In this document: piece after piece, positions 3,195 to 44,987 of the stretch | Layout of the letters: the number at the start of each line of letters is the position of its first letter | Numbering within the stretch: position 1 is the first letter of the stretch | NCBI GenBank assembly: GCA_947624325.1 | Contig: CANQJT010000011.1 | Coordinates: 1 to 44,987 of the forward strand | Source: Candidatus Gastranaerophilales bacterium | GTDB taxonomy: Bacteria > Cyanobacteriota > Vampirovibrionia > Gastranaerophilales > Gastranaerophilaceae | DNA: 44,987 nucleotides | Direction of reading: 5' to 3' | Made by a program: the position numbers and the translations under genes | The notes under the pieces: model-generated | The model's input: only the letters and a program-made list of their open reading frames with translations | What the model was told of the DNA's origin: nothing | Database searches by the model: none

Positions 3195-3195
3195 A

Positions 3196-7579: not shown

Positions 7580-7590
7580 GGTAAATAAAT

Positions 7591-12126: not shown

Positions 12127-12129
12127 GAC

Positions 12130-14514: not shown

Positions 14515-14515
14515 A

Positions 14516-15001
14516 ATGCAAAAATTGAAAAAACCTTTTACAAAAAAAGAAAAATTAAATTTTATTGTTAAATTCAATCATCAAATGGGTTTATCCATAG
14601 AAGAAACCGAAACGGCTCTTTATGCGCTTGAACCTTGGGAGGAACTTAAAGGTGATGAAGTTATCAGCAATAAAGAAGCTTGGGAAAAAGAACAGGAACA
14701 AAAAGAAAAAGAACGAATAAAGATACTTGCATTAACTGCAGCAGATGTCGAAAGGGCTATTTATAAAGCTAAAGGTATGGATTTTGAGGATATTGTTGAA
14801 TTTATAAAATCAAATCCGCCCGAAGGCTTAGATATAAAGGCTTTAAAAATTGAGTTAAAAGCAAATAACTTTTACAGGGGCAACCCTTATGTTGAACAAA
14901 TTGGAACACTTTTAGGCTACACTTCGGAGGATATTGATTATCTGTTCAAGAATAAGGAACTGCCGATAAAAGAAGGAATAAAAGATGATAATTTGGTATG
15001 A
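14516..15001 (+). CDS. phage protein following the tail fibre, function unknown
   Basis: A 161-aa protein. The N-terminal half is helical and charged with a Lys/Glu coiled stretch (EKEQEQKEKERIK). The C-terminal half includes AIYKAKGMDFEDIVEFI and ANNFYRGNPYVEQIGTLLGY. The start at 14516 is chosen because GGAAGGAG precedes it; an in-frame ATG at 14480 lies inside the fibre gene without a ribosome-binding site. Genes in this position are often fibre-assembly chaperones or accessory tail proteins, but no known chaperone motif is visible. Overlaps the next gene by 17 bp. Confidence 0.6.
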   Translation: MQKLKKPFTKKEKLNFIVKFNHQMGLSIEETETALYALEPWEELKGDEVISNKEAWEKEQEQKEKERIKILALTAADVERAIYKAKGMDFEDIVEFIKSNPPEGLDIKALKIELKANNFYRGNPYVEQIGTLLGYTSEDIDYLFKNKELPIKEGIKDDNLV

Positions 15002-15446
15002 AGATAAAAAAATAAAAATTGAATTTGATAAAATTCCTAAAACAACAATGTTATTTCCACTCCCCGATATGACAAAACAAGAGAAAAATGATATAAAAGA
15101 TAATCCGTTTGTGAATCTTGAAAATTTATCGGTAATTATTGAGGATAAACGAAAATATAAGAAATATTCTTTTGTAATAGAAGAAGGATACAGATGGGAC
15201 GGGGCAACTATACCCCGTCTTTTTTGGCGGTTAATAGGTTCAAAAACCGAGCCTGAATTTCAAGTTGCTTCCATGCTCCATGATAAACTCTGCGAAAACC
15301 ATTCTTTTATCAATAATGACAGATATCTTTCAACATTAGTACTAATAGGATGTATGAAATGTGCTGATGTTTGCCCTCTAAAAAGATGGCTTGTTAAACA
15401 TTCGGTTGATAATTACCAAAAGATTATGGGACATTGGAATTTATGA
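14985..15446 (+). CDS. DUF1353 family phage protein
   Basis: A 153-aa protein with the DUF1353 signature: EGYRWDGATIPRLFWRLIG (~63-81) followed by ASMLHDKLCE with its conserved His-Asp pair. DUF1353 proteins are common near lysis or tail genes of phages; some are proposed to be peptidoglycan- or membrane-acting, but their reaction is not established. The conserved Asp, His and Asp residues suggest a metal or catalytic site. It ends ATGA with the next gene (15443-15446), so the two are translationally coupled. Confidence 0.85.
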   Translation: MIIWYEDKKIKIEFDKIPKTTMLFPLPDMTKQEKNDIKDNPFVNLENLSVIIEDKRKYKKYSFVIEEGYRWDGATIPRLFWRLIGSKTEPEFQVASMLHDKLCENHSFINNDRYLSTLVLIGCMKCADVCPLKRWLVKHSVDNYQKIMGHWNL

Positions 15447-27606: not shown

Positions 27607-27956
27607 TTATGACAAATTTTTCGCCATCATATTGTAGTTAATTGTGTTGTAAAGAAACAGGACAATACAGAAAAGGGGAACTAGCCTTAAAGCCCCTGAA
27701 CTCAAAGGTTCTTTATGGTAATTTAGGGTTACAGAAAAGTCCGGTATGTCCGATTTCCATCAAAATTAAGTCCGGTAAAAGTCAAATTTTTCATATTGAT
27801 ATACCGCAAAGTCTTATTTCTGTATGACAATAGCCAATGACAGATATCGGACTTTTGCAATAAAATAGTAACACAGGTTCCGGAAAGAATTATTTTTCTG
27901 TTACAAAACGGAACCTTGACGGAACTTTTTGCGGAACCTAAGCGGAACCCTAATAT
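27607..27956. other. ~350-bp non-coding left border region of the accessory element
   Basis: No convincing gene. It contains GTCCG words at 27739, 27748 and 27770 and the inverse CGGAC at 27848; the motif AGTAACACAGGTTCCGGAA (27867-27885), which recurs in both orientations at the right side (44604-44625 and 44879-44900); a GTAACA/TGTTAC pair (27868-27873/27899-27904); and the phased CGGAAC array listed separately. This density of short repeats is what a transposon end or recombination site looks like. Confidence 0.5.
27909..27948 (+). repeat. helically phased CGGAAC array, left copy
   Basis: Four CGGAAC hexamers begin at 27909, 27920, 27932 and 27943, spaced 11, 12 and 11 bp, i.e. one helical turn each. 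A fifth related word, TTCCGGAA, is at 27878-27885. The array stops about 9 bp before the gmrSD stop codon. The same words in opposite orientation form the array at 30732-30772. Such phasing suggests cooperative binding of a transposase or repressor along one DNA face. Confidence 0.75.
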
Positions 27957-30368
27957 TTATGTATAAAATTTGGGAATGTCATTTTCTGTTGTTTTTCTAA
28001 TATATCTAAAAAATGATTTAATAAAACGTTTTAATATATCTGGGAAATTATCACTATTTTCAAAGTAATATTCTCCGTCGTCATTCCACGTATTTATCCA
28101 TAGTTTATTGTCTATAAAATTATATTGAATTCTATAAGCTTTTCCATTAATTTCAGTTCCACATTTAAAAAATTTCAAGTTATTTTCATAATCTTTTTCT
28201 ATTACATAGGTATATTTAGAATTCAGGTATGAAATATTAGAAGGATTTTTCTTCATATGAAACACGTCTTTATCAAAAAAAGATTCTAGTTTTTTAACAT
28301 ATAAGTTATCCTCTGGTAGACTTTTTAATTTTTGTTCAGCTTCATTTCTTTCTAGAGAAGTATCAATACCTTTTAATTTATTTTTTAGATCTTCATAGGC
28401 TGTATTATCTAATTTATTGTATTCGAAATTATATAAATTGAGGTCATTTACTTTGGCATCCCATTCTTCTTTATTAATATATAATTTTAGCCAATTTTCG
28501 TACATAAAATTAAAAAGCTCAGTTGAACGTTCATATATTTGTTTTAATGTCCAAACTTCTTCCTTTGAAATTTTGATAGCAGAACGTGAACCGTAGCAAT
28601 ATGCGAATTTCCCAGATTCTACAGAAATATCTTTCTTTACTGGAAAACTATAATTTTTTAAACTGCTATTTTCTGAACCTGTTGATAATAGTAAAAGATT
28701 TCCTAAGGAATTAATAGTATTTAATCTCTGTTCTTCACTGTCTGCACCTAATAAGTTATATTTCTCTAGCATACATTGCCAGTACTCTCTTTTAGGATCT
28801 TGAGGAAGAATATGTTCAATAGAAATCTCTTTATTTTTATACCATTCAACAATGGCAGCATTCTGTATTTGTAATGAATTGTTATATTCAAATAAAAAAT
28901 ATTTTAAACCATTCCAATTGTAATAATTTTTATTCATAATGTATTCATGGAATCTTTCGATTGCCTGCATTATACAATTTTTATTTAGAGGCAAGATATC
29001 ATGCTGTTTTATGGAATTTATTAATGCTTTGATTTTTTTATTTTTTTCATTTTTGTCACACCATAATAAATTTCTTGTTGCTGCAATTAGAAAACTCATA
29101 TCATTCTTATCTTGTGCCATTAATTTAAATATAAAAATAAATTTTTCTAAAATATTATAAAATTCTATCTTGTCTTCAGAGCAAATATCCTTTTCCGCTA
29201 AAACAACCATTGTAGATACTTTTGCGTAAAATAGATCAGGCAATCTTGAAAGCCTTTTTAACCAAATTTTCTCTTCATCAGGGATTTTTAAATCTATATT
29301 ATCAGGAATATTAACAATTGCCCAAAATTTGCTGTATAGTTCCAAACTTTCAATATAGTTATATAACAACTCGAATGCTTTTTTGTAATCTAGATCCTTG
29401 CAACAAGCTTGGTAAAATTCTCCATTGTCAACTGAAAACTCATTATTTAATATATCATCAATAAAAGCATTTCCATTTTTTTTACTTAATCTTTTATATA
29501 CTATCCAATGAGCTTTTAAATATAAATCATCTGATAAATTTGAGTTTTCATAATTTAAATAATCATAGATATTTTTCCAAGCTATATCAATTTTATTTTG
29601 CAATCTATTTTCATAATTATTATTGTCGTTTTTATTAAAGAAAGTTGATAAATACATTAATCGATTTTTTAATAATTCTAAATTCGTTAAAGGTTTCCCT
29701 CTATTATTCATTGTTTCAAATGTAACTCTTACATCAAAATCTTCGGTAATGTAATAAACATTAAAAATTAACCTATTTAGTATTATATTAACAATTTCAA
29801 CAATATTATCGTCATCAAATTGATCTAATTCTTTTGCTATATATTCTGCTGCAAAGTTAATATTTGATAAATATTGACTGCTATGTTCCATATCAGTTCT
29901 ATAATCATATATTCTTCGACTAAAATATTCCTCTGCCTTATCTTGTCTTTTTACAGAATATCCAAAACGATGTATTTTACTTGTATTTTCTAAAATATTT
30001 TTTACAGTATTATAATCAAAACTTTTAATATTTTCTTCTTTTGCATATTCAAAAATTGTTTTCAAAATAATTATTATAGATGTAATTCTTTGTTGTCCGT
30101 CAACTATATAAAAAGAAGTTGTCTCCTGTAAACATTCTTGCATTAAGTCGATTTCTTGTTTTATTTCATCTAAAGCTAACATTCCCACATAATGCTTTCT
30201 TGAGATGTTATTTATATGAAATAATCTAATTATATCATTCCATAATTCTATAAATTCTTTGTTCCAAGAATACCCTCTTTGATAATCTGGAACTCTATAA
30301 AAATGATCTGCCGAAAAAAGCTCTTTAATTGTTTTCAAGTTATTTTGGTTTGTTATTTGAGTTGTCAT
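27957..30368 (-). CDS. GmrSD-like type IV restriction enzyme (DUF262-DUF1524 fusion)
   Basis: An 803-aa single-chain GmrS-GmrD protein. The N-terminal DUF262 domain has DYQRGYSW at 28-35 and the DGQQR motif at 90-94, a ParB/Srx-like NTP-binding and hydrolysis fold. The DUF1524 His-Me nuclease motif EHILPQDP starts at E518 (H519), followed by NSLGNLLLLSTGSENS. The ~200-residue C-terminal extension ends in a beta-rich domain (YVIEKDYENNLKFFKCG). Family members cleave modified (for example glucosylated or hydroxymethylated) phage DNA, or act in BREX-like and other defence. Lies 15 bp downstream of the Mor-like gene in the same direction. Confidence 0.88.
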   Translation of the reverse strand: MTTQITNQNNLKTIKELFSADHFYRVPDYQRGYSWNKEFIELWNDIIRLFHINNISRKHYVGMLALDEIKQEIDLMQECLQETTSFYIVDGQQRITSIIIILKTIFEYAKEENIKSFDYNTVKNILENTSKIHRFGYSVKRQDKAEEYFSRRIYDYRTDMEHSSQYLSNINFAAEYIAKELDQFDDDNIVEIVNIILNRLIFNVYYITEDFDVRVTFETMNNRGKPLTNLELLKNRLMYLSTFFNKNDNNNYENRLQNKIDIAWKNIYDYLNYENSNLSDDLYLKAHWIVYKRLSKKNGNAFIDDILNNEFSVDNGEFYQACCKDLDYKKAFELLYNYIESLELYSKFWAIVNIPDNIDLKIPDEEKIWLKRLSRLPDLFYAKVSTMVVLAEKDICSEDKIEFYNILEKFIFIFKLMAQDKNDMSFLIAATRNLLWCDKNEKNKKIKALINSIKQHDILPLNKNCIMQAIERFHEYIMNKNYYNWNGLKYFLFEYNNSLQIQNAAIVEWYKNKEISIEHILPQDPKREYWQCMLEKYNLLGADSEEQRLNTINSLGNLLLLSTGSENSSLKNYSFPVKKDISVESGKFAYCYGSRSAIKISKEEVWTLKQIYERSTELFNFMYENWLKLYINKEEWDAKVNDLNLYNFEYNKLDNTAYEDLKNKLKGIDTSLERNEAEQKLKSLPEDNLYVKKLESFFDKDVFHMKKNPSNISYLNSKYTYVIEKDYENNLKFFKCGTEINGKAYRIQYNFIDNKLWINTWNDDGEYYFENSDNFPDILKRFIKSFFRYIRKTTENDIPKFYT

Positions 30369-30383
30369 TTCTCAATTCCTTTA

Positions 30384-30701
30384 TTATTTTTGTTTATTAT
30401 TCTTCCCCTCAACATGTTCTTTAATTACCTTATAAACATATCTTTGAGTTGTATCACAAGCTTTAACTAGCTCGATTATATTTCTTCTTGTCGCAGTATA
30501 GTTATCTATAATATACTGCTTTTTATATGGTTGATTACAGTGAGCATGGATTGAAAACTTGTCTCCTGCGGCATTAAACATCAATTTTTTAGTTGCTTCT
30601 AATCCAATAATTTCGCAAAGCAATTTTAAATCTTCTGTTGGAAGATTATCCTCTGTTATATATTTTGCCCATACAGGCTCAGGTTTTAATTTTATAGCCA
30701 T
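30384..30701 (-). CDS. Mor/C-like transcription regulator
   Basis: A 105-aa protein with a Mu Mor-type layout: a helical N-terminal dimerisation part (LKLLCEIIGLEATKKLMFNA), a G-D-K-F-S-I strand turn, then a C-terminal helix-turn-helix (IIELVKACDTTQRYVYKVIKEH). In Mu, Mor activates the middle promoter; here it is divergent from the transposase operon and upstream of gmrSD, so it probably controls one or both. The operator-like phased hexamer array lies in the intergenic region. ATG at 30701 preceded by AGGGGTAA. Family assignment by pattern only. Confidence 0.68.
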   Translation of the reverse strand: MAIKLKPEPVWAKYITEDNLPTEDLKLLCEIIGLEATKKLMFNAAGDKFSIHAHCNQPYKKQYIIDNYTATRRNIIELVKACDTTQRYVYKVIKEHVEGKNNKQK

Positions 30702-30731
30702 GATTACCCCTTTACCTCATTATATAACAAA

Positions 30732-30772
30732 CGGAACTAATTTCGGTTCCGTTTGGTTCCGCTTTTGCTCCG
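30732..30772. promoter_or_regulatory. operator-like phased hexamer array between regulator and transposase
   Basis: CGGAAC at 30732, then GTTCCG at 30746 and 30756 and GCTCCG at 30767, spaced 14, 10 and 11 bp. It begins ~30 bp upstream of the Mor-like gene and immediately downstream of its predicted promoter, so a protein bound here would block or control transcription start. Inverted counterpart of the array at 27909-27948. Confidence 0.7.
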
Positions 30773-30788
30773 TTTGAAAAAGGTCATT

Positions 30789-30816
30789 ATTATATACAAA
30801 AATTTTGCCTTTGCAA
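30789..30816 (-). promoter_or_regulatory. sigma70-type promoter for the Mor-like/gmrSD operon
   Basis: On the minus strand TTGCAA (30816-30811), 16-bp spacer, TATAAT (30794-30789). Transcription would start near 30782-30777, directly beside the phased hexamer array. Confidence 0.55.
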
Positions 30817-30933
30817 TACAAGAAAATCTTTGTTTTTGTAGGTTTGAAATGGCACTTGTTGATATGTTTCGATATGGATACATTGACTACCAATTTCCGG
30901 AAAGCAGAGTTAATGTGTGAAAGGAGAAAAATT

Positions 30934-32898
30934 ATGAAAAATTCAAATGTAGACTGGATTACAACAAAAGAACTCGCAGAAATTAAAGGTATATCTGAAA
31001 GAGCTGTTCGTAAGTCCATCGCTAAAAACAAGTATGTTATAAGGAAATGTTCAAAATCTTATGAAATTTTAATAACATCTTTGGAAGAAAGTGTTAGAAA
31101 AAAAGTAACAGAACGAAGAGAAAAATCAACAGCACTTGTTCCTATAAATTATGTTGTTCCTGAAGAGCAAAAGAAATTGGCTCTTGCAAAATATGACCTG
31201 ATTAAAAATTGGGATAAATTCAGGAATGAAAAAACCAACAAAACACAAGCAGGAAAAGATTTTCTTGATGCCTACAATAATAATTGTTTATGCAAAAATT
31301 TATTTGTTGCAATAGGCAAAGTTGCTATCGGAACAATTTACGAATGGCATAAAAAACTTCGGGAATATAATGACGATTGGCATAGTTTAATCAATAATTA
31401 CACATTTGGAGCCAAAACAACAAAGACATTATTAACAGAAGCCGAGAAATCAGAACTACTAAAAAATCTCTTACATCCAAACCAGTTAAATATTGGGAAA
31501 GCTATTAAATATACTAAAATGGCATTAAAAGGCAGGGGATATGAAAATTTATGCTGCGATTTAACTTACCGAAGATTTGCGAATAATTATAAGGCTGAAC
31601 ACTATGACGTTTGGGTAGAGGCAAGAGAAGGAAATAAGGCTCTGCACGATAAAGTTCTCCCATATATTACAAGAGATGTTTCAAAACTGGAAGTTGGAGA
31701 TGTCATTATTGGTGATGGGCATAGATTAGCATTTTTTGTTAAAAACCCATACACAGGAAATCCTGTCAGACCAACGTTGGTTGCATATCAAGATTGGAAA
31801 TCCGGCGGCTTTGTAGGTTTTGAGATAATGCTTGAAGAAAATACTCAATGTATTGCTTCTGCGTTAAGAAATTCGATTATAAATCTTGGTAAAGTTCCTA
31901 AGTTTGTATATCAAGATAACGGTAAAGCTTTTAAAGCGAAATATTTTACCGAAGATGGAATAGCAGGATTATTTAAAAATCTTGGTATTCAAGCTATATC
32001 TGCAAAACCATATAATGCAAAAGCAAAACCTATTGAAAGATTATTTAGAGAATTACAAGATAGTTTTGAAGTTATGCTCCCGTCATACACAGGAACAAGT
32101 ATTATTAAAAAGCCGGCTCAATTAAAAAGGAATGAAAAACTCCATAAAGAGTTATTCAAATTAAATATTCCGACAATAGAGCAAGTTATTTTAGTTTTAA
32201 ATGCTTGGTTGCAAAAATATCATTATGAACAACCCTGTCCACATGTTGAAGGTAAAACTATCGGGGAAGTCATTAATGCCGGTAGAGGCGAGGGAGTTAA
32301 TATCAAAACTTTGGATGACCTTATGATGGCTCGCAAAATCAAGAATATTCAGAGAAACGGAATAAAATTCTTGAAAAACGATTATTTTGACCAAGCTTTA
32401 TATGGTTATAAGAAAAATGTAATTATAAAATACAGCCTGTTTAATTTAAGTTCAATTAAAGTTTATAAATTAAGCGGTGAGTTTATTTGCGAAGCTAAAA
32501 GAGTAGATCCGTCAGACCCGTTAGCGAATTATCTTGGAACTCCAAAAGATATTGAAGATTTAAAACAAAAAACAAAATTGAAGAAGCAATTAGAAAAAAG
32601 AACAGAAACTGAATTTGTAAATCACTTAAAAAGAACACAAGTACATAATCCGTTATTAACAATGGATTTGCCTGAGAAACAGGAAGCAGATGAGATACAA
32701 GAATTTAGTATTGAAGTTAAAAAGCAAGCAAATGAAGAAATTTTCAATGGAATTTTCAAAAATAAATACGAAAAATATGAATATTTACTCCAAAAAGATA
32801 CTCTAACCAAAGACGAACAAGACTGGATTAAAGAATACGAAAACACTGATGAATACGAGCAAATATATGGCGAAGATAAGGAGGTAATTGATGCATAA
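30934..32898 (+). CDS. Mu/Tn7-like DDE transposase (MuA/TnsB/TniA family)
   Basis: A 654-aa retroviral-integrase-superfamily transposase. An N-terminal MuA-type winged HTH is seen at ~6-50 (WITTKELAEIKGISERAVRK). The catalytic core has D261 in IIGDGHRLAFF, D328 in YQDNGKAFKA and E368 in PIERLFREL, a complete DDE triad. A beta-barrel domain follows (~450-530), then a charged helical C-terminus that in MuA/TnsB relatives contacts the AAA ATPase. The start at 30934 is supported by AAAGGAG; the frame is open 43 codons further up without a ribosome-binding site. It overlaps the ATPase gene by 8 bp. Confidence 0.93.
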   Translation: MKNSNVDWITTKELAEIKGISERAVRKSIAKNKYVIRKCSKSYEILITSLEESVRKKVTERREKSTALVPINYVVPEEQKKLALAKYDLIKNWDKFRNEKTNKTQAGKDFLDAYNNNCLCKNLFVAIGKVAIGTIYEWHKKLREYNDDWHSLINNYTFGAKTTKTLLTEAEKSELLKNLLHPNQLNIGKAIKYTKMALKGRGYENLCCDLTYRRFANNYKAEHYDVWVEAREGNKALHDKVLPYITRDVSKLEVGDVIIGDGHRLAFFVKNPYTGNPVRPTLVAYQDWKSGGFVGFEIMLEENTQCIASALRNSIINLGKVPKFVYQDNGKAFKAKYFTEDGIAGLFKNLGIQAISAKPYNAKAKPIERLFRELQDSFEVMLPSYTGTSIIKKPAQLKRNEKLHKELFKLNIPTIEQVILVLNAWLQKYHYEQPCPHVEGKTIGEVINAGRGEGVNIKTLDDLMMARKIKNIQRNGIKFLKNDYFDQALYGYKKNVIIKYSLFNLSSIKVYKLSGEFICEAKRVDPSDPLANYLGTPKDIEDLKQKTKLKKQLEKRTETEFVNHLKRTQVHNPLLTMDLPEKQEADEIQEFSIEVKKQANEEIFNGIFKNKYEKYEYLLQKDTLTKDEQDWIKEYENTDEYEQIYGEDKEVIDA

Positions 32899-33580
32899 AT
32901 TGTTTGTTAAAACTCGTAATGTCAAAAATTTTATTGGATTGATGAATAACTTAATTGATAAATCCAATGGAGTTCCAAAAATGGGATTAGTTTATGGCGA
33001 TCCCGGATTAGGAAAAACTCAAACTGCTGTTTGGTGGACAACAAGAAATGATGCGGTTTATGTCAGAGCCCAAAACAAAATGACCAGCCGATGGCTAATG
33101 GAAAAAATTGTTTTTGAACTCGGAGAATCCCCATCAAGAAAAATGGCTAATCTTATGGAACAATGTATTGCCCATTTAAGGTTAAAACCGCAAGTAATAA
33201 TCATTGATGAAGTTGATTATCTTATCAGCCGTTGCAAAATCGTAGAAACTTTGCGTGATGTTCACGATTTAACAGGAGCACCTGTTGTATTAATCGGTAT
33301 GCAGGAAGCTAAAACAAAACTCGGTAAATACAGGCATTTGTACGACAGGTTATCTGAAATTATAGAATTTAAACCTTTTTCTAAAGAGGATATGGAGGTA
33401 ATTGTTGAAGAATTATCCGAAATAAAGATAACAGATGAGGCTAAAGAGATATTTTTTGAAAAAACTAACCGCTTCCGCCAGATTATAAAAGGAATTTCAT
33501 TGCTTGAAAATTTGGCGGCAACAAACGGATTAAACAAAATTGATGTAAAACAAGTGAAAGGATTGACCATTGAAAAGTAG
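32891..33580 (+). CDS. MuB/TniB-like AAA+ ATPase, transposition target regulator
   Basis: A 229-aa AAA+ protein with Walker A GDPGLGKT at 36-43, Walker B IIIDEVDYL (D106-E107) and a sensor region VVLIGMQEAK. The C-terminal lid continues to residue ~225. Proteins of this family form ATP-dependent filaments or rings on target DNA, recruit and activate the transposase, and enforce target immunity. The ATG at 32891 has a perfect AAGGAGGT five bases upstream; it overlaps the transposase stop by 8 bp and the next gene by 11 bp, so all three are translationally coupled. Confidence 0.92.
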   Translation: MHKLFVKTRNVKNFIGLMNNLIDKSNGVPKMGLVYGDPGLGKTQTAVWWTTRNDAVYVRAQNKMTSRWLMEKIVFELGESPSRKMANLMEQCIAHLRLKPQVIIIDEVDYLISRCKIVETLRDVHDLTGAPVVLIGMQEAKTKLGKYRHLYDRLSEIIEFKPFSKEDMEVIVEELSEIKITDEAKEIFFEKTNRFRQIIKGISLLENLAATNGLNKIDVKQVKGLTIEK

Positions 33581-35219
33581 AGATTTAATAATAAAAACAG
33601 CAAGAAGATTAGATAAATTTAATCTTGATGAATTAATAGTAGTATCAGAACTTGACGAAAAAGAAGTTACGGAAATTTTATCGGATTTAATTAAACAACA
33701 AATTATTTTGAAAAATAATAATACATATTTTTTCAACACTAAAAAGTCCGCAGAAATTACCAATAATGACGGTGATGAAACAATAAGCGAATTTAAACCG
33801 ATAGTTATAGAGGAAGAGGAAGGTTATGGGGATTTTCTGAAATTTGGAGAAGAAACTCAAAATCGGGTAAGAGCCTATGTGGGATTATTAAACTTAATTC
33901 ACCAAGCAGGAACTAAAAATATAAATAAAGTTGTAGAGTTGTTTAATGAAACCTCCGGTTATCCAAGAATTGCACCCTCAACTTTTACAAGAATCCGCAG
34001 GAAATACAGCCAATACGGTTTTAGAGGAATTCTTCCAAAATTCAGTAAGCATATAACAGTTGCTATTCCTGATGAAATATATACTTGTTTCAAAAAATAT
34101 TATTTAACTAATGAAAAATTATCCGTTCAAGAAGCAATATACAGAGCTCAAAAGGAATTACAATCAGAGCAAAAGATAGAACAGCCTTATGCTTATACTT
34201 CTACCCCTTTTGTAAGAAAAGTAAGAACGGAATTTACAAAAGAGCAAATTGAATATTTCAGAAATAATATTGAGGCTCAAAAGCCTAAATTTGAGCCAAT
34301 TAAAGTAAAAGAACCTCTTGATATGAAGTTTGAGAAAGCCGCATACATATATTTAAAACATCTAAAAATGGAAAATAAACTTGAAAGATTAATGCACGAT
34401 AAAACTAATTATAAAAACCATTTAAAACCATATTTTGATAATTTATCAATAAGAGAAATAACGACAAAAGTTGTAGCTCAATTTAAACAAAGTATGTTTG
34501 ATAATGGATTTCAATTAGTATCAGTAAATATTTATATTACATTACTGAAATTAATTATAAAAACCGTTTGTCCTCTAACAAATAGTCTTGTTGTAAGAAA
34601 TAACTCTAAACAAAAAGTTTATAGCGTTGATATGAATATTTTATCAGATGAGAAAATTGCCGAATTACTAAATATTTGTAAGAAAAAATATCCTGCGGCA
34701 TACCCTGTAATTTATTTGAGTTTATCTACGGGAGCAAGTGTTCCTGAAATATTAGCTTTAACTTGGGAAAGGATAAATTTTGAAGATAATACAATATTTT
34801 TGAAATATTTTCTATACGAACAACGTCTTGTTATGAATAGATGCGGATCAACAATACGAAAATTAAAATTTGATGACAATATTTCCGATATTCTGAAAAA
34901 GAAATTTGAAGGAACAAAACCTGAATTAACAGATTTTGTATTCAAATTTGACTCTCCAAAATCTCCTCAACAGTATATAGAAAATGTTGTATTAAGAGGA
35001 TTATCTGCCCATCTTGTGATAGTAAGACTACACCCAAGCGATTTACAGCATAATTTTGTTAATATGTGTCTAAAACAAAATGTTCCGATTACTTTTATTC
35101 AAAAAGCATTAGGATACTATGGCTTACCCAATTTTATAAGAATATACAAAGATTTAATCGCAAATTTGGATAACGGAAATTATAATCCGCTCAATAAAAT
35201 TTTAGAAAGTAAGGAGTAA
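33570..35219 (+). CDS. tyrosine-recombinase-like protein lacking catalytic Arg/His residues
   Basis: A 549-aa protein with an N-terminal winged-helix-like part (~12-55), a helical middle, a SAM-like core-binding domain (~255-345) and a C-terminal domain shaped like a tyrosine recombinase (~355-530). At the first Arg position (TG-L-R-x-x-E in active enzymes) it has TGASVPE with S390. The H-x-L-R-H block reads SDLQHNF with S490 and Q493. The LGH block reads LGYYG with Y516. Only the nucleophile-position tyrosine, Y526 in RIYKDL, remains. It should therefore bind DNA but not recombine it. TTG start at 33570 with GAAAGGA upstream; overlaps the ATPase gene, 2 bp before the next. Confidence 0.8.
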   Translation: MKSRDLIIKTARRLDKFNLDELIVVSELDEKEVTEILSDLIKQQIILKNNNTYFFNTKKSAEITNNDGDETISEFKPIVIEEEEGYGDFLKFGEETQNRVRAYVGLLNLIHQAGTKNINKVVELFNETSGYPRIAPSTFTRIRRKYSQYGFRGILPKFSKHITVAIPDEIYTCFKKYYLTNEKLSVQEAIYRAQKELQSEQKIEQPYAYTSTPFVRKVRTEFTKEQIEYFRNNIEAQKPKFEPIKVKEPLDMKFEKAAYIYLKHLKMENKLERLMHDKTNYKNHLKPYFDNLSIREITTKVVAQFKQSMFDNGFQLVSVNIYITLLKLIIKTVCPLTNSLVVRNNSKQKVYSVDMNILSDEKIAELLNICKKKYPAAYPVIYLSLSTGASVPEILALTWERINFEDNTIFLKYFLYEQRLVMNRCGSTIRKLKFDDNISDILKKKFEGTKPELTDFVFKFDSPKSPQQYIENVVLRGLSAHLVIVRLHPSDLQHNFVNMCLKQNVPITFIQKALGYYGLPNFIRIYKDLIANLDNGNYNPLNKILESKE

Positions 35220-35221
35220 TT

Positions 35222-35650
35222 ATGAAAAAGCAATTATTGGCAGACTCTGCCGCTAAACTATATATTGAAAAATTAATGACATTAGAAAATATCGCACAAA
35301 AGTTAAATGTGAATGAAAGAACTCTTCGCCGTTGGAAATCAGCAGATAAATGGGATGACAAACGCTCTGAATATCTTAAAAACAATACGACATTCCACGA
35401 AGATTTGTATAAATTTGGGAGAAACTTGTTGGATTCTATACAAAATGATATGGCAAAAGGTGAAAAGATTGGACCTGCAAGAATGTATGCGGTTACAAAG
35501 ATTATGACAATGCTTAAGAATGTAAAAATCTATGAGGATAAAGTAACTAGTGAAAAACACATGCCGGAAGCGACAAAACCTGAAGGTTTATCTCCTGAAG
35601 TTATAAGAGAAATTGAAGAGAAAATTTTAGGAATAAATTATGAGGATTAA
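35222..35650 (+). CDS. HTH protein resembling Mu-like/terminase small subunit (DUF1804-like)
   Basis: A 142-aa protein. The N-terminal helix-turn-helix (TLENIAQKLNVNERTLRRWK, then SADKWDDKR) is the typical start of phage terminase small subunits and of DUF1804 proteins of Mu-like phages. The remainder is helical (FHEDLYKFGRNLLDSIQNDM; ARMYAVTKIMTMLKNV) with a charged end. It starts 2 bp after the recombinase-like gene and closes the transposition operon. With no other packaging gene present, it is either a relic of a Mu-like phage or a DNA-binding accessory of transposition. Confidence 0.72.
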   Translation: MKKQLLADSAAKLYIEKLMTLENIAQKLNVNERTLRRWKSADKWDDKRSEYLKNNTTFHEDLYKFGRNLLDSIQNDMAKGEKIGPARMYAVTKIMTMLKNVKIYEDKVTSEKHMPEATKPEGLSPEVIREIEEKILGINYED

Positions 35651-35652
35651 TT

Positions 35653-35680
35653 TTTAAAATCGTTTTTTAACGGTTTTAAA
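35653..35680. terminator. stem-loop between converging operons
   Basis: TTTAAAATCGTT (35653-35664) and AACGGTTTTAAA (35669-35680) form a 12-bp stem with one G-T pair. There is no clean T-tract after it, so terminator activity is uncertain. It lies between the transposition operon and the NACHT gene on the opposite strand. Confidence 0.4.
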
Positions 35681-35812
35681 TATATTCAAATGAGGTTTTA
35701 TATATAAATTGCATTTACCCCATCTTAATCGACCGGTTGAACACTTTTTGAACAATGTTTGAATATAGTTTACATTAATTTAATTTTTTTGCTATTTTGT
35801 TATAAATTAATA

Positions 35813-38800
35813 TTAGAAAATTGTTATAGAATTTCCTGTCAAATCTATATTCTCATTTTGAGCAATATTATTATATATTTTATTTATTTCATCTGAAACT
35901 TTTTTTGTAACATATTCCTCTATTGATTCTATTAGTGGCATTATCATCCATCCGCAGTAATCATCATCTAGAATATCGGCATATTTCATTTTAATAGGTG
36001 TTTCTTGCTGTTGTTTCATAAGAATACTATAGTGGAAACTACAATATAAAGAATTATTTATTTTTTTATCATCAATATCTTTTATATTATATTCTACTAA
36101 TAATGGAAGATTAGAATACATAAATAACATATCTTTTATAGTTGGGAAGAATTCTTCTACAAATTTCACATAAGCAATATGCATTTTATAAAAAAGCATT
36201 TGGCAGTATTTGTTTCTTTGTTCTTTGCTATATGAATCAATAATAATACTCCCATCTATTCGTTCTTTGATTTCACCATTAATAGATTCACAAATTATAT
36301 GCGGAAGTTTAGCCTCTGCATCTGCTCTTGGTAAAGGGGAATCTAGTGTTTTGCTATATTTTTGATATTCTATTAGATAATTTTCTAAGATATCAATCCC
36401 TGCAATTTTTATATTGGGTATTACTTTTTGTGTTTGTATAAATTGTTCTATTAAAACATCATTGTATTGTACAATTTTATTATTGGGTTCTATTAAAATT
36501 GTTTGATTAGAAAAATCGATTTTATTCTTACCATCAAGATATATTTTTATTTTTAATCTATTTATTTTGTCTAAAATATCACTTATTAAAATTGGAAAAA
36601 TATTTTTTTTGTATCTATTGTATGAATAATTCCCGTTTTTACTTATATTTTCTTCCTTATAACCAAGCAAACAAGAATATACTTCAAAAAGATTGAATGT
36701 TCGTTCGTTTAATATAATTTCATTATTTTTTGGATCAAAATAGGAATTGGGATAATATTCTGGAGAACCTCCAAGACCATTGTGGCGAGGGTTTTTTAAT
36801 ATTCTAAAAACATCTTCTATTAATCTTATGAATGCTTTTGATTTCATACTATTTTCATCATTAATCTTTAATCCACTTGAAATGCCGCCTAATTTATGGA
36901 AAGTGTCATTATATTTTTTGCTGTCATCAAAGATCGTTACCATATCTTTGCTATTTTTAGTGGGATATAAGAAATAGCGTGGTTCAACAGGATTTTTTAA
37001 AAAGGCGATTGCAATTTTGTCAATACATTCTGGGTAGAGTGTATTTTTAATTTCTTTAAAATATTTATTTAATAGATCATTGTATTTATTTATAAATAAT
37101 AAAATTTTACTCATAAAATAATCTTCAATTAATTTTTTATGAGATGTATCAGCAAATTGATAGTACCACTGAATAATGCTCGTTCCTATTTTGCTCAAAT
37201 ACAATGTTGGCAACATATTTTTAAAATCTACTATTGATAATTTGTCAATTTTTAAGAGTTTAAATCCAATAATATAATCTCGAAATCTAGTATAATAAAA
37301 ACTTATTAAAGGTTCGTCATATATCACTTTTTGCAGAATCTTGTGTTCAAAAAGCTTATGCGGTATAGTTTCAGTGACACGTAGTTGAAGATTTTTATTT
37401 AACTCTTGTTCTGAAATTTTGTCGGACATGTTGTAAATATCATACAAAACATTTATGTATTTTCCTATAGAGCTGTTCCAAATATATTTACTTACTTCTA
37501 AAAGGATGTTGTACGTAATTTCCTCGTCCTCTTTGTTGGTACACATTTTTGAAAACTTTTCTTTTAAGTATTCGTCCATCATTTCTAAAATATTTTTAAA
37601 TTGAAATTTTCTTTTATTTTTATGTATTTCTGCATAAATTCGCAATATAAATCCATTTCTGAGTTCGTAATCAATTTCTCTTGGAATTTCTAATAAATTA
37701 TATTTCTCTATATATTTAGATTTTATAGTATCAAATTCTTGTTCAGAAAAATTTTCTAAATATAAACTTATACCATTTTTATCTCCATATACATTTTTTA
37801 AAATTATTGTCGGATTGCCTTTATTATTTATAAATCTTTCATATTCAATATCCTTACAAGTAAAGCATATTTTAATATTATAATCTTTTATTTTTCTTAT
37901 AAAATCATTAAATTCAACACAGAAATTATCATTTAAACTTTCATCAATAGCATCAAAAAATATAATAGTTTGTTTATCTGAAATAGCTGATATTCTTTTT
38001 ATAATTTGGTCTGTTGAATGTTGAGATGTGAAATGCCAATTAAAATCTTCTTTTATATTTTCAATAATACTGCTATACATTTCATGACAACTAAAAAAAT
38101 ATGATAAATTATCTGGATGCAAATTAGAAGCATATTTTTGTGCTAAATCACATATAACATTTGTTTTTCCAGTACCAGATTCTCCAATTATCGAAAAACA
38201 AGTCTTTTCGGATGCTAAAAATTGTTCAAATTCATTATATACATTACCACGTTCAATAAATAGTTCTGGAATATATTTTTCATCTGATGCAATACTATTC
38301 CCTCTTAATGTTTCCATTCTTGAATCAATTTGTTGTTGGCAGAATACTGACAAATTATGGGAAGACATACCTATAAGATATTTAGTTGCATTATAAAAAT
38401 TTTCTTCTATATCAAGAGATAATGTATAATCATAATTTTTTATATTAATATTAAAATTGTCATCATTCAAATTAAGTTCTTTACCATCATATTTGAATAC
38501 TCTAGTATCTTTTCCATTAGTTATAACTACAAATGGGGTAATTTGCTTTGTTAATCTAGCATATGATAGACCCTGTTCTATATCATTATCATCAATTTTT
38601 ACATTTTCTGCTTTTATTTCAAAAATAAATAGATTTTTATCATCTTTTTTAACTAATATGTCTGCTCTTGGACAAGCTATGGTTGCTGAAACTAAGGTAT
38701 CTACCTTGACAACGCCTTTACCAAATCTAATTGTGAAACTCTTTTCTAAATTGATTTCATTAGCTTCAAAACCCCATTTTTGTATGGTGTTTAATACTAT

Positions 38801-38836
38801 ATGCTTGATATTTTCTTCGTTTAAAGCATTCTTCAT
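35813..38836 (-). CDS. PD-(D/E)XK nuclease-NACHT-type STAND NTPase (anti-phage sensor/effector)
   Basis: A 1007-aa protein with three parts. Residues ~1-120 form an HsdR-N/PD-(D/E)XK-type nuclease domain with D59 and E73-x-K75 (PRADILVKKDD; FIFEIKAENV). A STAND/NACHT NTPase follows, with Walker A GESGTGKT at 218-225 and Walker B IIFFDAIDES at 291-300. The ~500-residue C-terminus has no obvious repeats and is the likely sensor. The layout is that of Avs/bNACHT-like defence proteins, where binding of a phage component opens the NTPase and activates the nuclease. The start at 38836 lacks a clear ribosome-binding site. No known C-terminal sensor family recognised. Confidence 0.82.
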   Translation of the reverse strand: MKNALNEENIKHIVLNTIQKWGFEANEINLEKSFTIRFGKGVVKVDTLVSATIACPRADILVKKDDKNLFIFEIKAENVKIDDNDIEQGLSYARLTKQITPFVVITNGKDTRVFKYDGKELNLNDDNFNINIKNYDYTLSLDIEENFYNATKYLIGMSSHNLSVFCQQQIDSRMETLRGNSIASDEKYIPELFIERGNVYNEFEQFLASEKTCFSIIGESGTGKTNVICDLAQKYASNLHPDNLSYFFSCHEMYSSIIENIKEDFNWHFTSQHSTDQIIKRISAISDKQTIIFFDAIDESLNDNFCVEFNDFIRKIKDYNIKICFTCKDIEYERFINNKGNPTIILKNVYGDKNGISLYLENFSEQEFDTIKSKYIEKYNLLEIPREIDYELRNGFILRIYAEIHKNKRKFQFKNILEMMDEYLKEKFSKMCTNKEDEEITYNILLEVSKYIWNSSIGKYINVLYDIYNMSDKISEQELNKNLQLRVTETIPHKLFEHKILQKVIYDEPLISFYYTRFRDYIIGFKLLKIDKLSIVDFKNMLPTLYLSKIGTSIIQWYYQFADTSHKKLIEDYFMSKILLFINKYNDLLNKYFKEIKNTLYPECIDKIAIAFLKNPVEPRYFLYPTKNSKDMVTIFDDSKKYNDTFHKLGGISSGLKINDENSMKSKAFIRLIEDVFRILKNPRHNGLGGSPEYYPNSYFDPKNNEIILNERTFNLFEVYSCLLGYKEENISKNGNYSYNRYKKNIFPILISDILDKINRLKIKIYLDGKNKIDFSNQTILIEPNNKIVQYNDVLIEQFIQTQKVIPNIKIAGIDILENYLIEYQKYSKTLDSPLPRADAEAKLPHIICESINGEIKERIDGSIIIDSYSKEQRNKYCQMLFYKMHIAYVKFVEEFFPTIKDMLFMYSNLPLLVEYNIKDIDDKKINNSLYCSFHYSILMKQQQETPIKMKYADILDDDYCGWMIMPLIESIEEYVTKKVSDEINKIYNNIAQNENIDLTGNSITIF

Positions 38837-38886
38837 ATAAAAATTATAATATAAATATTAATTATTCTTTTAATACATTGAGGATT

Positions 38887-39117
38887 TTAAGTCTTTTGTT
38901 TTTTTATCCCATCTACATCTATAAAAAATACATTTAATAAATCCGCATTATTCCTTAAATTTTTAACAACGGGAGCAAGGTTATAGCACTCTTCAATCTC
39001 CGGCTGATTACAAACAAAGTAATCCACAATTACGGCGATATTATACACATCTTCTGCCCACTTGCTGACTTTCTTAAACTCTTGCTCGCTGATGTTGTAT
39101 CCGCTAACTTCTTTCAT
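38887..39117 (-). CDS. small helical protein, function unknown
   Basis: A 76-aa protein (ISEQEFKKVSKWAEDVYNIA; CNQPEIEECYNLAPVVKNL) predicted mostly helical, with two cysteines and an IDVD strand near the C-terminus. The ATG at 39117 is preceded by a strong AAGGAGG. It lies between the NACHT gene and the restriction endonuclease, oriented with NACHT but ~50 bp upstream of it. It could be a regulator, antitoxin-like or sensor partner of the NACHT protein; nothing in the sequence decides. Confidence 0.65.
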   Translation of the reverse strand: MKEVSGYNISEQEFKKVSKWAEDVYNIAVIVDYFVCNQPEIEECYNLAPVVKNLRNNADLLNVFFIDVDGIKKQKT

Positions 39118-39252
39118 GTTTCCTCCTTATATCAGGAAACACATTAGCGTAAAAGCAGACAAAAAGCATTGAAATATTTACATATCAACACAAAATACTA
39201 AGGGATTTTCTCTTGATTATTTTTATGATAAAAGTATCTATAGGAGAAACTA

Positions 39253-40131
39253 ATGAGCTACTTTAAAAATATCAAAGAACCAAGCAAAATTATTACAGCA
39301 ATAGATACATCTATAAAATTTCCAGAGATTTTAGAAGCTTCTAGAGAAAAATATATAAATGATATTAATTTGTTTATAAAATTGGTCAATAATTCTATTT
39401 CTTCAGAGTCATTACTTAAAGAAATTCGTTCAGTAGATATTGACAGTAAGCAAAGAATGTCTTTATTAAAGTTATACAGAAGATGTGTGTGTCCAATTCT
39501 AGATACTGAAATGACAAAAAAGATTAAAAAAGTTTCAACAGAAATGCTGATAGATAATTATGCATATTCCTTTAAAGATATAAATATTCTAAAAGAGCAA
39601 CTAAAAACGATGAGCTCAGATACTTTATCAGCATTAGCAGTTTTAATCGGAGAATATGATTTTAGGGGACAATCTGGCTATTTATTAACAGATAGGTTTT
39701 TCTCATGGTTTGAAAAACAATTTAAAGATAGATTTACTATTGACGGACCAAGAGGGGCCGGGCGAGATATTGAACTTTCGACGATTTGTTGTGATTTTGA
39801 TGATAATTGTCCTTGCGATTTTGTAATATTTAATGTTAACGATAATAGGTTGTTAGCCGTTGGTTTTGCAAGATATGATTCTACAAGAGGAGGTGCACAA
39901 TCTGATGATAGAACGGGTGGAAACTCCAATAAAGTAGATAAAATCCAAAGATACTGTGAGAAATCAAATAAAAAACTCAAGATAATTTTTCTTTCAGATG
40001 GACCAGGTCTTTTACATAATGATACTTGGAATGAGACTTGTCATATTGATGGTTCTTGGAATGGCAATGTAAGAGTTACCACGTTAAAACTAGCGGAAGA
40101 GAGAATTGATGCGAACTGGCTACTTAGTTAA
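39253..40131 (+). CDS. type II restriction endonuclease (partner of the adjacent methyltransferase)
   Basis: A 292-aa protein. The C-terminal half is the conserved part: GPRGAGRDIELS, CDFVIFNVNDNRLLAVGFARYD, RGGAQSDDRTGGN and KLKIIFLSDGPGLL. This block recurs in type II restriction enzymes paired with adenine methyltransferases, as I recall the family. The usual PD-(D/E)XK pattern is not obvious; the acidic RDIEL and CDFVIF residues are candidates for metal binding. It converges on the methyltransferase with a 4-bp overlap of the stops, as in many R-M pairs. Recognition site unknown. ATG preceded by TAGGAGAAA. Confidence 0.72.
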   Translation: MSYFKNIKEPSKIITAIDTSIKFPEILEASREKYINDINLFIKLVNNSISSESLLKEIRSVDIDSKQRMSLLKLYRRCVCPILDTEMTKKIKKVSTEMLIDNYAYSFKDINILKEQLKTMSSDTLSALAVLIGEYDFRGQSGYLLTDRFFSWFEKQFKDRFTIDGPRGAGRDIELSTICCDFDDNCPCDFVIFNVNDNRLLAVGFARYDSTRGGAQSDDRTGGNSNKVDKIQRYCEKSNKKLKIIFLSDGPGLLHNDTWNETCHIDGSWNGNVRVTTLKLAEERIDANWLLS

Positions 40132-41393
40132 TTTGATTCAATAGAACTTATAATTTCTTTATAACTAATATATTTAGATTTTTCTATATAGATATTGTAT
40201 TTGTGCTTGCATTTACCACTTTTAGGGAACTTCTTAGTAGGTTTTACATAATCCCCCATTGCACATAGTCCATAATTTAATCTTTTTAAACAAGTTTTTA
40301 AAGCAATAGGAGATTGGTCAATACCAATCCAGTTTCTATCTAATTCGTCCGCTGCTTGCAGTGTGGTGCCAGAACCGCAAAATGCATCTAAAATAGTATC
40401 TCCAGGGTTGCTGCTTGCAGTTATTATCATTTTTAGCATATCTAAATTTTTTTCGGTAGGATAACCTGTAATTTTTATGCTTTGGTGATAAGCATCCCTA
40501 TAATTATCCCAATAGTCAGTTATGCCTAATAACTTATTATTATCAAAATAAACCTTTCGTCTGGGATTTCCATTGCGAGACCAATGAATTTCTCCCTTTT
40601 TATCCATTTCTTCTAATTTTTCTGGAGTATATTGCCAATGTTTCCCTGGTGGTGGAAGCATATTACGCCATTTTTTCCCTGTTTCACCATTACGAATTCC
40701 CGGAGCATGGATTGGAACTAATTTGTATCTGCCATTATTATCTACTTTGGGATATTCTTTTAGAATCCACTCTTCATCTGGCATTACACCAGGTTTGTTC
40801 CAAATATAATTTTTTGTTTTTGTATAGAATAGAACAAAATCATTTAAATTTGCATATTGATTTTTTGTATAATTTTTACTGCTGCATTTTTTTCTTGTTA
40901 TTATGTTTCTAAAATTGCTTATCCCAAATATTTCATCCATTAATATTTTGATATACGCAACCATTTGATGACCAATATGAACATATATAGAACCATTATC
41001 AGATAAAACTTCTTTTAAGAGAATTAATCTTTTTCTCATAAAATCAATATACTCTTCAAGTGATAAATCATCATTATATGCTTGCTCTAAGTTTCTTGAT
41101 ATAAATTTTTCACCAGTACAATACGGGGGATCAATATATATTAAATCTACTTTGATATTATTTTTAATTAAATTATATAAAGCATAACAATTATCAGAAT
41201 ATACCAAGGCGTTTGAATCTATATTTATATTAGTTTGAACTTCGTTAATATTATAAAATGAAGTTTCAATAGGATTTAGTATAGTTTCTTCTGATTCTTT
41301 ATTTCTATATGACAATTCAACACTCCCATATTTTGATAATTGTAATATGGTACCAATCTTGTTATGTTTTTTTTCTAATAATTGATTTTGCAT
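40128..41393 (-). CDS. site-specific DNA (adenine-N6 or cytosine-N4) methyltransferase, beta class
   Basis: A 421-aa amino-methyltransferase. The catalytic motif IV DPPY is at 88-91 (LIYIDPPYCTGEKF), and the SAM-binding motif DAFCGSGTT lies far downstream at about 334-343, followed by NWIGIDQSPIA. Motif IV before motif I is the beta-group order, with the target-recognition region between (~170-310). DPPY favours adenine-N6. It should protect host DNA from the convergent endonuclease. AGGAG lies seven bases before the ATG. It lies 70 bp downstream of the Argonaute gene on the same strand. Confidence 0.92.
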   Translation of the reverse strand: MQNQLLEKKHNKIGTILQLSKYGSVELSYRNKESEETILNPIETSFYNINEVQTNINIDSNALVYSDNCYALYNLIKNNIKVDLIYIDPPYCTGEKFISRNLEQAYNDDLSLEEYIDFMRKRLILLKEVLSDNGSIYVHIGHQMVAYIKILMDEIFGISNFRNIITRKKCSSKNYTKNQYANLNDFVLFYTKTKNYIWNKPGVMPDEEWILKEYPKVDNNGRYKLVPIHAPGIRNGETGKKWRNMLPPPGKHWQYTPEKLEEMDKKGEIHWSRNGNPRRKVYFDNNKLLGITDYWDNYRDAYHQSIKITGYPTEKNLDMLKMIITASSNPGDTILDAFCGSGTTLQAADELDRNWIGIDQSPIALKTCLKRLNYGLCAMGDYVKPTKKFPKSGKCKHKYNIYIEKSKYISYKEIISSIESN

Positions 41394-41463
41394 AGATCTC
41401 CTACTAGTATTATATTACCAAGAAAATTCTTTATAAGCATCAATGTTAAGTTATTTGTTTTGA

Positions 41464-44400
41464 TTACATAAAATATCTAAAATCGTAAGATTTATTATAC
41501 AAAGCCTCTTTTTGCTTAGACATCCTCGAAAGTGTCTTTGCAAAGTCTAGTGTTACCGGCATATTTTTATACAAATTATCGCCACTGTTCCAATTCATCT
41601 TAGTTAGCATTAATATCTCTTTAACCAATGTGTCCCCGGATGCTTTGCCATAAAATCTTTTTACTAAAACCGGTATAGGTATTCCTCTTCCACCTTTATA
41701 GTATGTATTATATCTGCAATTCCCTATATCATCTCCAACAACACAACCATGTGTCCATAACAAGAAACTGTCATTTGATAATTTTATAGTAGTTCCACGT
41801 TCAAGAGGAAAACTATTAGGAAGAGCTTTTCCCTCTTTTATAAAATATTTTATCGCTCTGTAAGGAGAATAACCCTGAATTTGCAACAATTCAATATCTT
41901 CAATTCCCTCTAATGCTTCAGTAAACCCTGCAATTTCTTGAGGTGTAAAAGGTGTTGTTTTATGTATTACAATTCGTCTTAGTTTTGCAACGGGATCACA
42001 TTTATAATATTCTTCTCTCAATTTACTTATTGTTGTTCTTGCTTCATCTCGCTTCATGTATGGATTTTTACCAACATATTGAGGATCGTCTAATTTTTTC
42101 AATATTAATCTTATTCCGGTTCCTGTTGAATCAAATAATTGGCTACAACCTATACATATTCCTTTTGTGTTGGATTTTGCATAACTAATTCCAACAAAAG
42201 CAGTCTCATCATCTAAAACTACAGGATGCCACAAAACACCGGATGCTTTTGCATATAAACTGGTAGATAAAGCCCACATTACTTTGCATTTATCATAGGC
42301 CGTTAGAGAACGCTCTTCTATAAATTGAATTTTTACACCTTTATTGGTTCCGTAAAGCTTTATAGCATCGTGCAAATTAAAATCTTGATCATAATTACTA
42401 TCTTCTCTAAATTTTGCAAATGATTTTGGTATATATAAAACTAAAACATCAAAATCTGATAATTGAGTTTGAAAATAATCTATTTGAGATTTTATGCTAT
42501 CGACAAAAGATGCTGTGTTTGCTTTGGAAGTTGCAGTTTCATCGTACATTCTACATAATTGCGTATTGTTTTTATCAGGTATATTTATAGCTCTTTTATA
42601 GATTTCATAAAATCCTTCATAATTCGGCAAAAACATTTCTTTAGTATTAGCAGAATGTTTTACATTAAGATTATTTAAATGTCCTATAATATTATCTATT
42701 TGTTGATTTGGAGACAAAATAGCAATTTTAATAGGCGATTTTTCGGCAGTTTCAAAAGAATAATCAATAGGTGCATACCTTTGCAAACCTTTTAACTGAT
42801 TTATGCTTGTATGATTTATATCATTAACATCAAATAACATTTCAGGTTCGTCAAATTTAAAAGAAGAAACTTGAGGGTGTTCTGGCTTAGTAGACAACTT
42901 ATATGACAAACATACCTGATTAAATATTACAGCAAAATTATTAATTTCAAATTTAATCTCTTTGCTGCCTTTCACATAAAGACTTTTGTTTAAATTTAGT
43001 AACAGATTGCCATATTCGACATTATAAATCTTGGACATTATACTGTTTATTTCAATTTGTTTATATAACTTACTAACTTCATTGCCATTTTTATTAGTCA
43101 AATAAACAGTGGGAATTATTGACAAGTAAATCTTTTCATTCAAGTATGATAATTGGATTTCAAATGCTGAATATTTTTTATATGTGAAGTTTGATTTATT
43201 TTTGTACTCGGTTTCGGAATCTACAAAATAGTATTTACTTTTTCCAAAAGATTTTATATTGGGATTTTGTAGTAACGAAACATTTATTAAATCATATAGC
43301 ATACCTACATATACAAAATTGGATTTATTTAATAATTTAGTTTCAGGAAACTCTTTATGAATTTCTGATTTAATATGAGTGAGAAATACTTCTTTTAATT
43401 TATCATAATTACAGAACGAATAAATTTTGCCTTTAAATAGCCCTGCAATTATGTTATTAGGATTTATGATCTTTCGTAAATCTTCCCAATTTGTTATGTC
43501 TGTTTCAAATACATTGCACGAAGGTAATTCTGTCGAGACAAAGGTGTTCATTTTTAATGAGCTTTGAGCTATTTTATCTGAAGAAAAATTAATTTCTTTT
43601 TTTCTATTGTCAAAATCTTTCCATCGTTCATCAATTATAGAATTTTTATGCTCATAATTTTGGTATATCAAATTTAAAAATTCATCAAAACCATCAATAT
43701 CAATTACACAGGACAGCTCATTGTTTTGGCAAGCCCTTTCCATAAAAGCATTTGCTCGTTCAGATAATGTTGTATTTTGTGGCTTACACCAATATATTCC
43801 TTTGCTTAAAAAATCTTTATTATCTATATTATCCTCAAGAACTTTCATTACAGAGTCATCATTTCCTGCATAACCTATAACAATGAGTCCTTTGTTCATT
43901 AAATTCTTGCAAAATAAATCTGATAATTGGCTTTCTAAATTTTGCAATTCCTGTTCTGTATTTTGTAGGGAATCATACCTATAATCACCATGCAATTTTA
44001 TGATATTTTGAAAGCTATTATTAACAATTTGAGAGATACTGTCTTTTTGAATCGAAGATACTACGTTAAATGAATATTGAGGGGATAATGTTTTAATGCC
44101 TGCTTCAATTAATTCATCAAAATTCGTTGTCCAAATATTTTCCACTTTATTGTTAATAAACAAATTAGCAAGGCAAAGATGTCCTCTTATGGGCTCAACA
44201 TTTGCAACGAGCTTTTTAATATATGCATTTCTCGCTAAAGTATTGTCATAGCACTTTTCAAAATAAAATGAATATTCTTCTTTTGAACCCCTTTTGGGGA
44301 ATCCATCTAAAGAGTTAAAGTAATCCTGTAATTTAGTTCTATTTCGTTCAGATTGCAGATCTTTAAATAGTTCTCTGGAAACATTATTTTCAGAACAATA

Positions 44401-44544: not shown

Positions 44545-44603
44545 CTAATCACCCCTTGTAAGGCAATTTTATCATGATAAAACTAAATCTTCACTATTGT
44601 AAA

Positions 44604-44900: not shown

Positions 44901-44926
44901 TTTAATTGATACAAAACAGACACAAT

Positions 44927-44957: not shown

Positions 44958-44987
44958 TGGATTTATGGTGTTTGTGCTATGAATAAT

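Follow-up and report, generated by a model that had tools for sequence, protein, structure and literature searches.

Phased CGGAAC arrays inside the left end and at a putative defence-cargo promoter of a MuA/MuB-type transposon from gut relatives of cyanobacteria

What reads a six-letter motif that stands in two short phased arrays of the same mobile element, once inside its left end and again beside the predicted promoter of its regulator and defence genes? The window analysed here, a 44,987-nucleotide stretch of contig CANQJT010000011.1 from a Candidatus Gastranaerophilales bacterium, carries a MuA/MuB-type transposon in which both arrays, referred to as array 1 and array 2, are built on CGGAAC. 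These arrays are a real, conserved and lineage-specific regulatory architecture of the element, and comparison with its relatives leads us to a tentative model (probability roughly 0.45) where CGGAAC is the recognition site of the transposase TniA, array 1 is a left-end enhancer and array 2 is an operator copy at the defence-cargo promoter. The features central to this question are:

27648 to 44652, no strand assigned: the whole transposon, with TGT...ACA ends, 17,005 base pairs (bp) long, its boundaries conserved among relatives.
27877 to 27882, minus strand: an extra inverted copy, GTTCCG (GTTCCGGAA; GGTTCCGGAAA), weakly conserved.
27909 to 27948, plus strand: array 1, four CGGAAC at spacings of 11, 12 and 11 bp, conserved.
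30719 to 30724, minus strand: a -10-like TATAAT of the putative mor promoter, from sequence and conservation among relatives, abutting array 2.
30728 to 30772, no strand assigned: array 2, the perfect inverted repeat CAAACGGAAC-8 bp-GTTCCGTTTG with GTTCCG and GCTCCG, found also in relatives.
30934 to 32898, plus strand: TniA, a MuA-type transposase (Pfam Mu-transpos_C; PHROG 310 over its length; best PDB match MuA 4fcy).

The preliminary description of this DNA had reported four CGGAAC copies, 11-12 bp apart, in array 1, and these are exact, starting at 27909, 27920, 27932 and 27943 on the plus strand. The motif is frequent in the window at large, with 24 copies observed and 5.1 expected, 13 of them left of 27.6 kb, where the host and prophage part is slightly richer in G+C; within the 17,005-bp element we count 11, against a mean of 2.8 and a maximum of 8 in 200 order-2 Markov simulations. 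CGGAAC is the sole 6-mer of the element with four same-strand copies inside 45 bp, a density reached by any 6-mer in 2 of the 200 simulations, and three CGGAAC within 45 bp arose in none of 300 first-order simulations. Chance clustering is rejected on the strength of these simulations together with conservation across left ends. The left ends were collected among the loci in hand with an array-free left end as the homology query; we dropped matches that stopped short of query base 244 or had an expectation value (E) worse than 1e-10, and set aside one locus with less than 60 bp of downstream sequence (L145). The resulting 44 distinct left ends contain four exact sites in 26 cases, three in 12, two in 4, one in 1 and none in 1, the last of these (L072/L128) having lost most of mor and looking decayed. 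Both arrays are present in orthologous elements, where their absence would have refuted the preliminary description by its own criterion; array 1 keeps at least two exact sites in 42 of the 44 left ends. Spacings among relatives are 11, 12-13 and 10-11 bp, so that array 1 covers about three helical turns; for 34 stretches picked by a pattern requiring three exact sites, conservation is conditional on that selection.

Array 1 had also been placed at the left end itself, which does not hold: the terminus TGTAAA is at 27648, the array starts 261 bp inside it, and across elements the distance from the terminal TGT to the array start is 258-261 bp. CGGAAC was not found in the last 600 bp of any of the nine complete elements. 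With the motif missing from the right end and the terminus 261 bp away, array 1 is rejected as a set of terminal transposase sites, and it is likewise rejected as part of the cargo since its distance to the terminus stays constant while the neighbouring cargo varies. A strict array-1 pattern recovers 32 loci in the species collection, most of them recorded as Candidatus Gastranaerophilales and some as bins under other labels, and nearly all named hosts belong to that group, which the named relatives also suggest for the host of the window element; a stricter pattern has no match in viral contigs, where the wider motif scan gave at least 120 stretches. A family pattern search matched 37 of 288 genomes, many of the matches being regular tandem repeats that we judged unrelated by sequence and did not count as arrays. 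Literature searches found, within the collection covered, no paper describing these CGGAAC arrays, and those on mobile elements of gut cyanobacterial relatives found nothing relevant.

To ask which protein array 1 goes with, we treated relatives as natural deletions and compared 54 loci, one per element and chosen by hand, of which 31 encode a short-wing TniA, the wing of its N-terminal domain being four residues shorter than in the long-wing form, and 23 do not. Leaving out L422 and L005, where the upstream DNA is short, all 29 remaining short-wing loci contain array 1, against none of the 23 long-wing or N-domain-less loci. At least two adjacent exact sites occur in 28 of the 29, and the other locus, L410, has two exact and two one-mismatch sites. 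We consider it improbable that a host regulator or nucleoid protein occupies the arrays, as they track one transposase subtype and are missing from relatives of other subtypes within the same bacterial family. Three further proteins of the element enter this comparison:

30384 to 30701, minus strand: a Mor/C-like regulator (Pfam Mor E 0.0036, below the cut-off; PHROG 836, late transcriptional activator, E 3.7e-6; Foldseek top ranks Mu Mor, E 1.7, and Mu C, E 3.3, no match reaching E 0.001 or better).
32888 to 33580, plus strand: a TniB/MuB-type AAA ATPase (Pfam TniB/AAA; PHROG 296, DNA transposition protein).
33570 to 35219, plus strand: a third protein, fused to a catalytically degenerate tyrosine-recombinase domain (Pfam, alignment, PHROG).

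Setting family members and L410 aside, relatives with the array have a TniB and a third protein no more similar to those of the window than relatives without it do. Array 1 is also present in three elements with no mor beside tniA, two of which (L310, L421) have a third protein without the recombinase domain and one of which (L420) lies on a contig that ends before the third gene; a search of genome G095, the home of L310, found no mor. Four other relatives (L413, L415, L416, L425) have array 1 and mor, with the recombinase domain and array 2 both missing, and the family members and L410 have both arrays, mor and the domain. As array 1 occurs in relatives without mor or without the recombinase domain, neither is needed for it.

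These data bear directly on the Mor-like protein, which had been listed among the candidate binders and which might act on both arrays, array 2 being an autoregulatory operator at a -35-less promoter and array 1 a second site. In Mu, the promoters activated by Mor and C have no -35 box, and here array 2 abuts the mor -10 box with the -35 position in variable sequence. In a relative without cargo (L311) mor ends about 6 bp from array 1 and lies directly between the two arrays. However, array 1 is retained in the three mor-less elements, including that of the genome in which no mor was found, and array 2 is missing from all four relatives that have mor but no recombinase domain. Array 1 also contains no dyad, and its all-direct-repeat layout would suit monomers better than a dyad-binding Mor dimer. 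We regard the Mor-like protein as quite an unlikely reader of the arrays.

Array 2 comprises CGGAAC on the plus strand at 30732, inverted copies (CGGAAC on the minus strand, read as GTTCCG) at 30746 and 30756, and a further inverted copy with one mismatch, read as GCTCCG, at 30767. The sites previously noted at 30732-30772 are confirmed; the inverted pair is spaced by 14 bp and followed by intervals of 10 and 11 bp. With CGGAAC followed by GTTCCG, the array opens with a perfect 10-bp inverted repeat, CAAACGGAAC-TAATTTCG-GTTCCGTTTG; the window layout reads CAAACGGAACC-N6-GGTTCCGTTT...GTTCCGTTTG, and the conserved form among relatives, CAAACGGAACC-N6-GGTTCCGTTTnGTTCCGTTTG, stands immediately beside the mor -10 box. 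Its location next to the promoter of the Mor-like/gmrSD operon, as originally proposed, is borne out by the abutting TATAAT, which is conserved among relatives and which, judged by its sequence, probably represents the promoter -10; the position of the -35 box coincides with the variable N6.

Array 2 is distributed differently from array 1, being present in 18 of 18 loci with a tyrosine-recombinase domain in the third protein and in 0 of 6 with a third protein that lacks it. This count omits four loci that end before the domain (L005, L139, L320, L332; a strict array 2 match in three of the four, L320 retaining two sites), L420 where the contig ends, L298 where tniA is truncated (array 2 present, no recombinase domain found) and the chimeric L313. 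Array 2 is a later addition than array 1. Separately, L413 and L415, which are without array 2, have a different inverted motif (about GGAATTACATGGTATATTATTCC) before mor, between mor and tniA, perhaps an operator there.

The recombinase-like protein of the preliminary description does contain a tyrosine-recombinase domain, but one whose catalytic arginines are lost. Measured against the canonical motifs of tyrosine recombinases, the catalytic arginines and histidine are replaced in nine aligned family members and L410, and the usual catalytic places hold TGAS/TGAN, LQHN/MQHN/LIHN and LGYY/IGYY/LGYF/LGIY/CGYS. In other families the third protein consists of the N-terminal part only. In the window element, residues 94-243 of the third protein show a weak resemblance to the transposase (PHROG 310). 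Owing to these replacements, the third protein would be at most a DNA-binding adaptor. The tie between array 2 and the recombinase domain, together with the replaced catalytic residues, leads us to retain two readings of array 2, one with TniA and one with such an adaptor.

As an adaptor, the degenerate recombinase half would bind half-sites, with array 2 as its core-site layout and array 1 as extra sites near the end. The geometry of array 2, in which a 6-8 bp spacer separates inverted core half-sites and accessory direct repeats are added as in an irs-type site, is consistent with this, as is its association with the domain. A precedent exists in Tn5401, which has TnpI sites both in its irs and close to each end, and whose expression is modulated when TnpI binds (described in part of PMC7157771). 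On the other hand, array 1 is kept in six relatives where no domain was found (L310, L421, L413, L415, L416, L425), and likewise in L420, though its contig stops before the third gene. A chimeric element, L313, combines family-type N-terminal and middle parts of TniA with a foreign TniA C-terminus, ATPase and third protein; it has both arrays although its 222-residue third protein lacks the domain, and the same genome has another copy with the domain. On balance, adaptor binding appears unlikely. In L307, as a separate observation, the N-terminal and middle parts of TniA are less like those of the window than the neighbouring genes are. That array 2 might be an active resolution site, at which a working tyrosine recombinase resolves cointegrates, is suggested by its inverted arms, variable short spacer and direct repeat, a layout of the Tn4430 irs type (as part of PMC7157771 presents it), and is nevertheless strongly disfavoured, to the point of rejection, by the loss of the catalytic residues in all aligned copies; we hold it to be extremely improbable.

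In the reading that we prefer, CGGAAC would be recognized by the core transposition machinery that the element itself encodes, the likeliest reader being the N-terminal winged-helix domain of TniA. The transposase matches PHROG 310 at E 3.6e-101, its closest solved structure by sequence in a PDB profile search is MuA 4fcy (E 1e-12), and 4fcy again ranks first in Foldseek; a VIA-align comparison is informative mainly on the catalytic core, not on the N-terminal domain. Residues 1 to about 65 are predicted to form the short-wing winged helix-turn-helix. TniA might bind a fuller half-site of about AAACGGAACC, its monomers sitting in tandem at intervals of one helical turn. Array 1 may then be a left-end-specific subterminal enhancer or end-identity element that promotes assembly. 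The analogy is with Mu, whose enhancer lies nearer the left end; the N-terminal domain of MuA binds this enhancer and through it bridges the ends (from part of PMC3562280). Array 2 would be a later copy of the array 1 sites at the -10 box, where the same protein could tune mor and the downstream cargo. Binding, enhancer function and operator function are all what we infer. A more specific history, in which the regulator and defence-cargo promoter acquired a copy of the left-end enhancer motif as the third protein gained its dead recombinase domain, leaving a single DNA-binding activity to set transposition competence as well as defence expression, we find doubtful.

Several observations weigh against recognition by TniA. 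Its N-terminal domain yields only weak general helix-turn-helix matches in Pfam, is not recognized as the Mu enhancer-binding domain, and has no Mu match in a PDB profile search. In a tree built without this domain, the short-wing TniAs, 31 rows in all, group in a single clade (Shimodaira-Hasegawa-like approximate likelihood ratio test, SH-aLRT, 99), so that their association with array 1 represents one evolutionary event rather than a replicated correlation, and the two may co-occur through shared ancestry alone. Short phased arrays of different motifs also lie upstream of tniA in other transposase families, with GTTTAA at 11-bp steps before tniA in L133 and AGTGCA at 10-bp steps in L016 and L019, the latter accompanying transposases without an N-terminal domain. 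Finally, recognition by TniA does not predict the link between array 2 and the recombinase domain.

Around the arrays, the gene order of the element is array 1, cargo (gmrSD here), the mor-like gene, array 2, tniA, tniB, the third protein, a helix-turn-helix gene and further cargo, the features not yet given being:

27648 to 27903, plus strand: the left end, with TACAGAAAA-type repeats at 27666 and 27730 and inverted at 27894, conserved.
27957 to 30368, minus strand: a GmrSD-type (DUF262) restriction protein, cargo (Pfam GmrSD_N/GmrSD_C).
35222 to 35650, plus strand: a helix-turn-helix protein resembling terminase small subunits (Pfam, PHROG).

In comparison with other genomes, homology starts sharply at TGTAAA (27648), with unrelated flanks, and ends at ...AACA (44652), and the two termini form an imperfect inverted repeat; the TACAGAAAA-type repeats are candidate transposase end sites. 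Among nine complete elements inspected, 5-bp target duplications lie exactly at the element ends in five (L298, L304, L305, L308, L311) and none is seen in the window copy, L125, L301 and L303; ACAGT flanks both sides of one further copy, spread over two contigs. The gmrSD slot holds other cargo, or none, in relatives. Further cargo includes a methyltransferase and a SIR2-pAgo protein (41464-44544, where a single long chain matches SIR2-pAgo defence proteins very strongly), which makes this a defence-carrying transposon. At 38887-39117, a reading frame of 76 amino acids and its flank recur in many otherwise different elements of the group, often at 65-93% protein identity. Just beyond the right end, 44656-44987 looks like the start of another tni element related to the first, comprising a left end and leader and carrying repeats of its own. 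The contig breaks off at this point, and its end shares a 77-bp overlap with the end of another contig from the same genome. In the host part, 340-15446 holds a phage-like gene series (lysozyme-like, portal-like, tail-like) adjoining host genes, by eye a prophage or remnant.

If one protein reads both arrays, it would couple mobility to anti-phage defence, and this could account for the way defence islands stay mobile yet quiet. Among known systems, Tn5053 combines TniA and TniB with TGT...ACA ends and 5-bp duplications, and the family of the window element shares all of these with the Tn5053/Tn402 type; unlike it, no TniQ or TniR was identified among the proteins of the window element, and its third protein carries the degenerate tyrosine-recombinase domain. 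Defence-carrying Tn7-like transposons resemble it in their variable anti-phage cargo (as covered in part of PMC8649781), whereas its gene set is MuA-like rather than that of Tn7. The TnpI-irs systems of Tn5401 and Tn4430, of the Tn3 family, are alike in having an inverted core and direct repeats that overlap promoters, Tn5401 possessing further sites close to its ends (from sections of PMC7157771); they differ in that the window transposase is MuA-type and not Tn3-type, its recombinase domain is catalytically degenerate, and array 1 lies at one end only and persists without that domain. Of the original analogy with Mu, the fixed left-end array, the array at the mor/gmrSD promoter and the MuA-related transposase stand, and array 1 as the end itself falls. 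The Mu operator/enhancer (internal activation sequence, IAS; O1-O2) likewise goes with MuA/MuB-type genes and lies nearer the left end, and Mu too has, left of the transposase gene, a regulator gene pointing away from it, the repeated sites lying in between (within the portions of PMC3562280 and PMC5977238 that describe this region). In contrast to Mu, the window element is not a phage, its regulator is Mor/C-like and not the Mu repressor, it carries defence cargo and has the same motif in the left end and at the promoter, and its N-terminal domain goes unrecognized by Mu profiles. The Mu comparison is useful for what the arrays would work like, with membership in the Mu enhancer class not established. 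If one protein does read both arrays, the element would also offer a non-phage system to set beside the Mu enhancer, in gut relatives of cyanobacteria.

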